Positions 21,256 to 53,509 of a stretch of 64,000 nucleotides of DNA are shown here, in pieces. The position numbers and the translations under genes were made by a program. This DNA comes from Afipia sp. GTDB lineage: Bacteria; Pseudomonadota; Alphaproteobacteria; Rhizobiales; Xanthobacteraceae. Location of the stretch: positions 1 through 64,000 of the forward strand of contig JAFVHU010000150.1 of NCBI GenBank assembly GCA_017474385.1, written 5' to 3'. The notes below the pieces were generated by a model. It was not told the origin of the DNA, did no database searches, and saw nothing but the letters and a program-made list of their open reading frames with translations. Each line of letters opens with the position of its first letter. The first letter of the stretch is position 1.

Positions 21256-21386
21256 CACGCCGATCCATTCATTTTTCAGACTTCTAGCCGAATGATTAAG
21301 GATTGGCAGCCGTTTGCAGGGCGGGCCGCCGCGCTGCTGCCAGATTCAGCGGGTTGTTAAGGGGCGGCGAGAATCGTAAAAGTCGC

Positions 21387-21551
21387 CTGGTGTGGTGGTT
21401 CGCAAGTCCGCAATCATGTTTGCGACGCATTCTTTTGCGGACTTGCGAACCAGAACCACACCAGAGGTTATAGTTGCTAGTGTCCTTTTGAATCCGAAGT
21501 TCGCTACGGAAGGCGCTGCGAAATAAGGCGAATTTCGGATTCAGGACACTA
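21387..21551. repeat. Paired inverted hairpin element, site A
   Basis: Hairpin A1 pairs 21387-21412 with 21436-21464 across a 23-nt loop; the right arm has 3 extra bases. Hairpin A2 pairs 21478-21504 with 21528-21551 across a 23-nt loop; the left arm has 3 extra bases. Between them is a short AT-rich spacer around TTATAGTTG. Site B at 53342-53509 has the same build with different arm sequences. The element fills the upstream region between rsmE and the gene at 21581. The remainder of this 325-bp gap shows nothing I can name. Confidence 0.88.
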
Positions 21552-21580
21552 CGACACTGGAACCCGCCGGAGAAGAACCC

Positions 21581-22300
21581 GTGACCGCCTATCGTCTTAT
21601 CGCATCGCTGGCCGCCGCCGCATTCGTCATGCAGGCAGCGGACGTTCGCGCGCAGGGTGCGTTTCCCGCGCCGCTGCCGGGACAGCAGGCTGCGCCGCCT
21701 GCCGCGAGCAATGCATCGCCGTTTCCTCCTGTGAATGGTGGTGGTGCCCCGGCCACATCGCCATTCCCGCCCGTCAATGGCGCAACCGCTGCGCCGGTGA
21801 GGCCGCAGCCGTCGCCGAGCGCCTTTAGCACCGGCGCTCCGCCGGTTGGCGGCGGCGGTTTCGGTGGACCACCCCAGCAGCAGGCCGGTCCGCCGCCGGG
21901 TGCGGAAGAATGTCAGAAAGGCTTCCTGCCGCTACGTGCGGATGTGGAAGCCAAGGGCAAGCTGGTTCAGGCCGCCGGCAAGCGTAAGGCAACGCCGCAG
22001 GAGGCCTGCAAGCTGATCGGTAATTTTGTGCAGGCTGACGCGAAGATGATCAAGTTTGTCGACGCCAACGCGCAGAAATGCGGCATTCCCGCCGAGGTCG
22101 GCGAGCAGATGAAGAAGGGGCATGCCAATTACACCCAGCTGCAGCAGCGCGTTTGTTCAGCAGCGCAGCAGCAGCAGGCTGGACCGGCAGGCCCGAGCCT
22201 GAGCGAAGCGCTCGGCTCCGCATCGCTGCCCGAGGCCAAGCCATCCAAGCGTGGTGGCAGCACCTTCGATACGTTGAACGGTAACGTCCTGACACGCTGA
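21581..22300 (+). CDS. Secreted proline/glycine-rich protein of unknown function
   Basis: The 239-residue precursor has a signal peptide (MTAYRLIASLAAAAFVMQAADVRA). Residues 25-105 are low-complexity Pro/Gly/Ala with two copies of SPFPPVNG. A compact helical part follows (about 108-190): EECQKGFLPLRADVEAKGKLVQAAGKRKATPQEACKLI and NAQKCGIPAEVGEQMKKGH, with three or four cysteines that could form disulfides. I recognise no characterised homologue. The GTG start has GGAGAAG upstream. It is 25 bp upstream of ubiA and could be co-transcribed. Confidence 0.7.
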   Translation: MTAYRLIASLAAAAFVMQAADVRAQGAFPAPLPGQQAAPPAASNASPFPPVNGGGAPATSPFPPVNGATAAPVRPQPSPSAFSTGAPPVGGGGFGGPPQQQAGPPPGAEECQKGFLPLRADVEAKGKLVQAAGKRKATPQEACKLIGNFVQADAKMIKFVDANAQKCGIPAEVGEQMKKGHANYTQLQQRVCSAAQQQQAGPAGPSLSEALGSASLPEAKPSKRGGSTFDTLNGNVLTR

Positions 22301-23258: not shown

Positions 23259-23268
23259 TGCTCGTCGT

Positions 23269-23369
23269 CATCCTGAGGTGCGAGCACTTGCGAGCCTCGA
23301 AGGATGACCTTGTGCACATGCCGTCGCCCTTCGAGGCCTCCGCTTCGCTACGGCACCTCAGGGTGACGG
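23269..23369. repeat. Dispersed palindromic repeat R1, copy 2
   Basis: A 101-bp element with terminal inverted repeats CATCCTGAGGTGC / GCACCTCAGGGTG (one mismatch) and an inner pair CTCGAAGG / CCTTCGAG. It is closely similar to copy 1 at 16148-16245 and sits between the convergent ubiA and DUF6101-like genes, where it may act as a transcription barrier. Confidence 0.9.
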
Positions 23370-43748: not shown

Positions 43749-43836
43749 GTGCGATAACGCCTCGCGTTATTGCTGCCCTCCTTGGGCGTTTCCTCCCTAG
43801 ACTTGGGCCACTTGCTTTCGCGAGTGGCCCTTTTTT
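43749..43836 (+). ncRNA. mmgR: mmgR / alpha-r8 (Rfam suhB-type) small RNA
   Basis: About 88 nt. A 5' hairpin (ATAACGC / GCGTTAT) is followed by a single-stranded stretch with CCCTCCTTGGG and TTTCCTCCC, the anti-Shine-Dalgarno-like motifs known in mmgR/alpha-r8 RNAs. A strong terminator closes it: 11-bp stem GGGCCACTTGC / GCGAGTGGCCC with a TTTC loop, then TTTTTT. In Sinorhizobium MmgR represses polyhydroxybutyrate accumulation and is near an inositol monophosphatase gene; here hisN is the neighbour. Limits are estimated from promoter and terminator. The surrounding gap 43362-43896 holds an AT-rich part (43490-43700) with no gene I trust. Confidence 0.85.
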
Positions 43837-43896
43837 CTTGGCGGGTGGTGGGGCAACACGGATGCTTCTCACGCGAAGAGATTCGCATGCAGAAAT

Positions 43897-45520: not shown

Positions 45521-45595
45521 GGGCGCGTAGCTCAGCGGGAGAGCACCTCGTTGACATCGAGGGGGTCACAGGTTCGATCCCTGTCGCGCCCACCA
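45521..45595 (+). tRNA. tRNA-Val (anticodon GAC)
   Basis: 75 nt with encoded CCA. Acceptor stem GGGCGCG / CGCGCCC, D-arm with AGCTCAGCGGGAGAGC, anticodon stem CCTCG / CGAGG around TTGACAT (anticodon GAC), T-loop GGTTCGATCCC. It lies alone between cpdR and the outer membrane protein gene. Confidence 0.97.
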
Positions 45596-53341: not shown

Positions 53342-53509
53342 CTAGTGGAGTGGATTTGACATTCGCCATCCCCTTGGCAGCGAGTCCGCAAAGCGAATGT
53401 CAAATCCAAAACTCCACTAGAAACCTATATTTGCTAGTGGTCCGTCGATTCTAACATTCGCAAGAATACTCGCTGAAATGGGGTGCGAATGTTAGAATCG
53501 GACCACTAG
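53342..53509. repeat. Paired inverted hairpin element, site B
   Basis: Hairpin B1 pairs 53342-53366 with 53393-53420 across a 26-nt loop; the right arm has 3 extra bases (AAA). Hairpin B2 pairs 53434-53461 with 53485-53509 across a 23-nt loop; the left arm has 3 extra bases (TCG). Outer ends are CTAGTGG / CCACTAG in both. The central spacer is AAACCTATATTTG. It has the same build as site A at 21387-21551 and lies between the LysR and GGT-family genes. Nothing else is visible in this 247-bp gap. Confidence 0.9.

Follow-up and report, generated by a model that had tools for sequence, protein, structure and literature searches.

Insertion sequences of the IS630 family duplicate a TA target and favour TA within CTAG, and integron attC sites fold into hairpins in which some bases of one side stay unpaired. 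In alphaproteobacteria, the CIR of Chen and Shapiro (2003) are reportedly CcrM-associated intergenic repeats of Caulobacter. A 2007 review describes CIR, in its passages on these repeats, as two arms with a linker and with TA at the ends, gives their target duplication as unknown, and states that more information on the mechanism of mobility is needed (PMC2229807). Among gene-less repeats, the same passages describe RUP of Streptococcus pneumoniae as a 107-bp element whose mobilisation is ascribed, from indirect evidence, to IS630-Spn1 and whose insertion sites contain TA (PMC2229807). No description of the twin-hairpin element reported here was found in the open-licence literature searched.

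Organization of sites A and B

Site A is a 166-bp repeat (21387–21552, + strand) within the window, the whole 64,000-nt stretch of DNA that was analysed, and its extent is set by own-genome matches and an alignment of 30 copies. It contains two unlike facing hairpins of 78 nt and 76 nt around a 12-nt AT-rich spacer, an arrangement that the first-pass annotation had described and that both the coordinates and the DNA fold bear out. The location given there is correct, but its end at 21551 is one base short, because pairing reaches the CTAG-like ends and the unit is therefore 166 bp; the left terminus is CTGG and the right terminus is CTAC. Hairpin 1 (21387–21464, + strand) is of P type with the arm CTGGTGTGGTGGTTCGCAAGTCCGC, and its 3-nt bulge (GAA, 21453–21455, in a register that may shift by one) lies on the side of the spacer AGGTTATAGTTG (21465–21476). 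Hairpin 2 (21477–21552, − strand) is of Q type, the type matching the IS630-family end CTAGTGTCCCGAATCCGAAGTTCGC, with the minus-strand outer arm GTAGTGTCCTGAATCCGAAATTCGC and a spacer-side bulge of TTT (21486–21488).

Site B (53342–53509, + strand) follows the same plan with different arms and belongs to a second subfamily, with an R-type hairpin 1 (53342–53420, + strand; CTAGTGGAGTGGATTTGACATTCGC) and an S-type hairpin 2 (53434–53509, − strand; CTAGTGGTCCGATTCTAACATTCGC). Folded as single-stranded DNA, positions 21380–21560 reach −55.2 kcal/mol, whereas shuffled sequences average −23.5 (z −9.9) and none of 200 does as well; the corresponding z for site B is −12.0.

Site A is flanked by divergent genes. 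To the left is an RNA methyltransferase gene (PF04452; 20500–21258, − strand) and to the right, downstream of the element, is a predicted ORF (21581–22300, + strand) that has no Pfam match at E 0.001 and whose start codon is 28 nt from the element. Site B lies between genes for a LysR regulator and a gamma-glutamyltranspeptidase. An Rfam scan at gathering score gave no family at site A and identified in the window only a suhB/mmgR small RNA (43768–43844) and one tRNA (45521–45592). A further inverted repeat at 23266–23368, CGTCATCCTGAGGTGC and GCACCTCAGGGTGACG separated by 71 nt, perhaps represents another repeat family.

Hairpin architecture

From its CTAG-like ends inwards, each hairpin comprises an outer stem of ~9 bp, a spacer-side bulge of 3 nt and an inner stem of ~15–16 bp. 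The bulge lies beside the spacer in all four hairpins of sites A and B, as had been noted at first pass, and among 283 distinct units it measures 3 nt in 244, 2 nt in 33 and 4 nt in 6. Where P-type arms have C at position 11 its partner is the final base of the bulge region, and in Q-type arms the position-11 base pairs with the first, so that the bulge is 3 nt in either register. Units are mostly 75–79 nt long with loops of 20–26 nt (275 of 283), but very short loops are present in genomes G266 and G484, and the short-loop form in G266 gives an element of about 133 bp. GCNGC is found in 154 of the 283 loops (54%) compared with 7.6% of shuffled loops. The outer and inner tetramers of a hairpin match in 90/107 left hairpins and 83/107 right hairpins.

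No same-type pair (P-P, Q-Q, R-R or S-S) is present among 127 elements. The earlier proposal that hairpin 2 is an inverted copy of hairpin 1 is thus correct as to the shared frame, but not as to identity, because the types differ.

Covariation of the hairpin arms

The first-pass annotation derived a shared frame with co-changing partners from four hairpins, and the same pattern extends to 62 aligned units, in which 99.1% of 1486 cells (24 pairs) are paired, 21 of the 24 pairs have changed on both sides, and 328 cells carry double changes. The covariation score is 0.576, compared with 0.174 for shuffled alignments and at most 0.132 when the arms are slid. G-U accounts for just 8 of the 1486 cells. 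The full set of 283 units has 188 unpaired cells among 6509 (55 G-T, 33 A-C and 100 other), and the three outermost positions are the commonest place for mismatches (74 of the 188).

The four main subfamilies (249 units, without the 34 others) account for 208 double and 94 single changes, totals that are not event counts because many of the doubles are inherited. Transitions and transversions stand at 150:58 in the double changes and 64:30 in the single changes. These similar spectra, together with the scarcity of G-U, suit correction of one arm by the other at the DNA level, and selection acting on DNA hairpins may also have kept the pairing. The paired changes point to DNA hairpins rather than conserved RNA, and a processed RNA structure, one of the possibilities raised at first pass, is disfavoured because the changes seldom pass through G-U and the mismatches have no strong G-T excess. 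A covariation scan might take palindrome arms that co-change in DNA, as here, for an RNA gene.

Retention of structure through paired changes would also be expected of an element that is useful to its host, such as an mRNA stabiliser, a small RNA or a CcrM/GANTC control site, and that has been spread by selection. Such a role is in keeping with the predicted start just downstream of site A and with the GANTC sites in 76/93 Q units and 26/43 S units. However, GANTC is present in only 3/77 P units, the few G-U intermediates and the lack of a strong G-T excess argue against it, and insertion sites vary among species that are 93–96% identical at the site A locus (3.4 kb); we therefore consider host usefulness a very improbable explanation. 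The GANTC sites are mostly within stems and overlap the loop region in 13 of the 283 units.

Copy number and distribution

BLAST identifies 38 near-full-length A-type matches and 16 near-full-length B-type matches in the element's own genome, a draft of 84% completeness, with sites A and B included. A covariance model of the hairpin built from the 62 aligned units (R1) finds at least 150 units there, the best of 2262 candidates. These form 70 facing pairs with spacers of 10–14 nt (mode 12). Of the remaining ten units, L092 is truncated and the other nine are each joined by a weaker partner, in one case just 49 nt in length, so that the genome contains at least 79 facing pairs. Lone hairpins do exist, as in the half-lost elements L092 and L321 and the degraded single hairpin L298 1133–1206. 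There are thus many sites beyond A and B, with arm differences that are mostly compensated, and neither of the outcomes that the first-pass annotation had named as fatal to its reading was found.

Matches are found by BLAST in 41 of 101 genomes, comprising every one of the 29 genus genomes, a further 11 from the family and a single genome from a different family of the order. With R1 and a stricter filter, matches are present in 81 of 149 genomes and 32 of 47 genera of the host family and, class-wide, in 15 of 289 sampled genomes including the host's own, the other 14 (of 288) being spread over 10 other families. Loci in other genomes have the same plan wherever both halves are in view. The 6.0-Mb single-contig genome G028 has the most first-look candidates in the genus (432 by BLAST and 4064 by R1) and is a good place to seek the transposase.

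Site A has no match among plasmids at E 1e-5 or phages at E 0.01, and an exact pattern search of viral contigs and plasmid searches with elements of three other relatives also gave no match. At E 10 the plasmid search returns seven Roseibium/Labrenzia plasmids and one 20-base match, and a Roseibium plasmid bears a twin-hairpin element.

Several composite arrangements are present. Adjacent elements can share one CTAG to form tandem arrays (L059 1500–1503 and L054 1496–1499; also L316, L285 and L282), and L298 4723–5129 is a chain of hairpins in which one element is inserted in the inner CTAG of another. A different element of ~106 bp with ends CTAGTACAGCGA and CTAG on both sides lies within the inner CTAG of a twin-hairpin copy (L360, about 490–600; G116:C126). 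At L090, two T-Z type elements (1174–1335 and 2526–2687) are located at opposite ends of one long ORF (1305–2699, − strand), presumably a tRNA-thiouridylase gene.

High copy number, bulged hairpins in facing pairs and the lack of genes in the copies examined are all features shared with REPIN or BIME-type elements, in which two inverted REPs are mobilised by a Y1 (HUH) RAYT transposase acting on single-stranded hairpins. Nonetheless, the Y1 family (PF01797) is matched in only 3 of the 29 genus genomes and is without a match at E 0.001 in the other 26, including G000, G012, G026 and G028, which makes a REPIN unlikely. The units of mostly 75–79 nt with loops of 20–26 nt also contrast with REPs of 20–40 bp, as given in the relevant part of PMC3733652, and the ends that the arms match belong to DDE-type IS630 elements, so that a REPIN is hardly credible for this family.

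Insertion polymorphism and target sites

A joined-flank search was performed with 20 elements of genome G012 in G026 and G017 and with 16 elements of G026 in G012 and G017. Of these 36 elements, 28 have at least one empty-looking fetched place in a sister species (40 comparisons); 25 of the 28 sites are readable and, with the three unreadable ones set aside and site B added, constitute a set of 26. All have an empty site of ~4 bp whose filled counterpart is N4-element-N4 with CTAG-like ends, which provides insertion polymorphism between related species, as an exchange of ~4 bp; the first-pass annotation had proposed looking for such polymorphism between strains. From these sequence comparisons the twin-hairpin element evidently moves, and the moving unit is evidently the whole facing pair.

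The target tetramers have C at position 1 in 17 of the 26 sites, Y at position 2 in 21, R at position 3 in 18 and R at position 4 in all 26, and 12 are C-N-N-G. A central TA is present in only four, contrary to the IS630 rule of TA insertion and duplication, and it follows that either the insertion rule differs or another enzyme acts. Filled sites carry CTAG at both ends in 13 of 26 cases, and 15 of the 52 ends are non-CTAG. CTAG is present at both ends despite targets of CCAG (L234), CCCG (L226) and GCTG (L229), and both ends equal the target only at L221 (CTAG) and at L182 and L223, where a CTGG target (in one of two outgroups for L182, in both for L223) corresponds to CTGG at both ends. At L192, where the target is CTGA, the inner tetramer is its complement, TCAG. 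Non-CTAG ends reproduce the whole target tetramer in four cases, more often than under permutation (mean 0.77, p 0.01), with a weak excess per position (8 vs 4.7, p 0.07). Classic target duplication was rejected as a general rule; among 26 elements with both ends non-CTAG, only five have directly equal ends and five have inverted-equal ends.

Insertion is favoured over loss at five sites because two other species have the same empty tetramer there (L183 CCGG, L226 CCCG, L229 GCTG, L223 CTGG and L232 TTGG). Elements are also lost, and pieces of site A remain in G012, G026 and G027. Some of the empty-looking sites may be scars, since the two outgroups of L182 disagree (CTGG and TTGA) and the L221 site in G012 keeps an arm fragment of an element. 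Genome G116 contains 15 full or nearly full copies at 96–100% identity, 0–7 bases from one of them, and this near-identity is apparently the product of recent activity. Genomes G119, G134 and G209 have probably had recent bursts too.

Relationship to IS630-family insertion sequences

A plasmid search with the element of a relative (L375) gives 28 identical bases (E 3e-4) at the end of an IS630-family transposase gene of Roseomonas mucosa. Eleven IS630 loci were examined, that of R. mucosa included, from 625 plasmid records with a match. Eight have paired terminal repeats, seven with CTAGT on both sides and the eighth, of Cupriavidus (L440), with CTAG and CCAG; in the other three the search found no repeat at both ends, the left end of the R. 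mucosa IS630 not being recognised and the R. gilardii locus (L432) giving no terminal repeats.

The right end of the R. mucosa IS630 matches the Q arm at 25/25 positions, and the ends in Bradyrhizobium sp. CB82 (CTAGTGTCCYGAGTCACAAGTTCGC) and B. guangxiense (CTAGTGTCYTGAACCAGAAGTTCGC) match it at 22/25 and 21/25 respectively. In the B. barranii IS630 the left end (CTAATGTCCCGAGTCACAAGTTCGC) is of Q type and the right end (CTAGTGTGGTGGACCAGAAGTTCGC) of U/P type, two bases off the U arm (23/25), such that a single IS630 has one end of each type, in parallel to the two hairpins of the element. The correspondence recurs in a S. meliloti IS630, whose repeat CTAGTCACCCG is identical to the outermost 11 nt on the right arm of the Roseibium twin-hairpin element. 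The transposases of B. barranii and Roseomonas share 80% identity across 356 residues, and that of Roseomonas has a Pfam DDE_3 domain. The link is tight only for the Q, T and U types, and less so for P, because R-, S- and Z-type arms match the IS630 ends examined at just 12 to 18 of 22–25 positions.

Transposase searches of host DNA were negative. Using four IS630-type transposases, tblastn found none in 1.34 Mb of overlapping fetched loci (up to L430) or in a 518-kb sample of G026 and G000 (9.6 kb masked; a small part of both), and the one weak transposase hit in fetched host DNA (L447) is presumably an IS3/rve fragment. No autonomous copy flanked by hairpins is evident in 80 places of the host genome (from the 150 best R1 units), in 67 named loci or in 42 G116 matches (40 of 68 candidates scored, with many copies running off contig ends), where the sole split copy contains another small element.

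The arm matches suggest that the mover of the element is of IS630 type, and the repeats are gene-less, short, multicopy and mobile, with ends homologous to those of an IS630-family insertion sequence (25/25, 22/25 and 23/25, weaker for R, S and Z), as in a MITE. Site A is thus probably a non-autonomous IS630-type MITE whose two different ends are each doubled into a hairpin, and of the possibilities raised at first pass it is the structured non-autonomous mobile repeat that is supported, by the high copy number, the insertion polymorphism and the IS630-type ends.

The 22 of 26 targets without a central TA might instead reflect a different mover, either a recombinase acting on folded single-strand hairpins or host repair, that puts CTAG-ended DNA in place of 4 bp, with the likeness to IS630 a matter of ancestry only. 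Young copies seem to inherit their outer tetramers, which appear to travel with the element because the pair CTCG..CGAG recurs in the G116 copies L410 and L416. However, the correspondence of the two hairpin types to both end types of the B. barranii IS630, and its repetition for another arm type by the Roseibium and S. meliloti pair, argue against this, and a different mover is unlikely.

A model for mobilization

On the preferred reading, an IS630-type MITE, each hairpin arm would be an IS630-type terminal inverted repeat with an outer CTAGTGTSS or similar, a variable middle and an inner AAGTTCGC or ACATTCGC. An IS630-family DDE transposase supplied in trans would cut at the outer CTAG ends and join the element to CNNG-like targets, with the element's outer tetramer usually displacing that of the target, perhaps via a heteroduplex. 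In such a staggered exchange, for which the coupling sequences of Tn916 offer an analogy, the donor CTAG would meet the target bases and usually be kept, with correction then following within the hairpin. Mismatches between arms would later be repaired with one arm as the template for the other, or purged by selection, and either process could keep each subfamily well paired.

More tentatively, and less likely than not, these could be widespread alphaproteobacterial transposons in which IS630-type ends became two bulged DNA hairpins, TA targeting was left for CNNG-like insertion with the elements' own CTAG ends at the junctions, and templated self-correction produced matched arm subfamilies with pairing intact. 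If so, CIR, and perhaps RIME, would be members of one mobile superfamily. The arm match to IS630 points to a candidate enzyme for repeats built in this way and makes their mobility a testable question. The family is also rich in natural insertion sites and provides matched end types as well as recent bursts.

Comparison with known systems

Integron attC sites, a likeness considered at first pass, also have unpaired bases on one side of a hairpin, but the element here is a two-hairpin unit with IS630-type arms. The REP, REPIN and BIME families of Bradyrhizobium and Rhodopseudomonas (PMC3733652; Br-REP1/2, PMC5082802) are likewise high-copy intergenic palindromes of related hosts; the REP units described in the relevant parts of these sources are shorter and have other consensus sequences.

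By description only, the twin-hairpin elements resemble the Caulobacter CIR, which in the pertinent passages of the review also have two long inverted repeats as linked arms with TA at the ends, in alphaproteobacteria (PMC2229807), and two linker-joined arms are found here in the same class. According to the corresponding parts of PMC2229807 and PMC10969869, CIR are ~110 bp, compared with 166 bp at site A, and one of their arms carries GANTC at its terminal loop or close by, a position in which few of the units here have it.

The likeness to IS630-family insertion sequences and to MITEs such as RUP lies in the terminal repeats with CTAG ends and in the complete match of the Q arm to an end of the Roseomonas IS630. 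The elements differ in that their two ends are formed by separate long hairpins, of unlike types and each with a fixed bulge, and in that targets mostly lack TA, whereas RUP sites contain it in the review's account (PMC2229807). Three features are unusual here: unlike ends that are each doubled into a hairpin, an exchange that does not follow the TA rule, and concerted change arm by arm.
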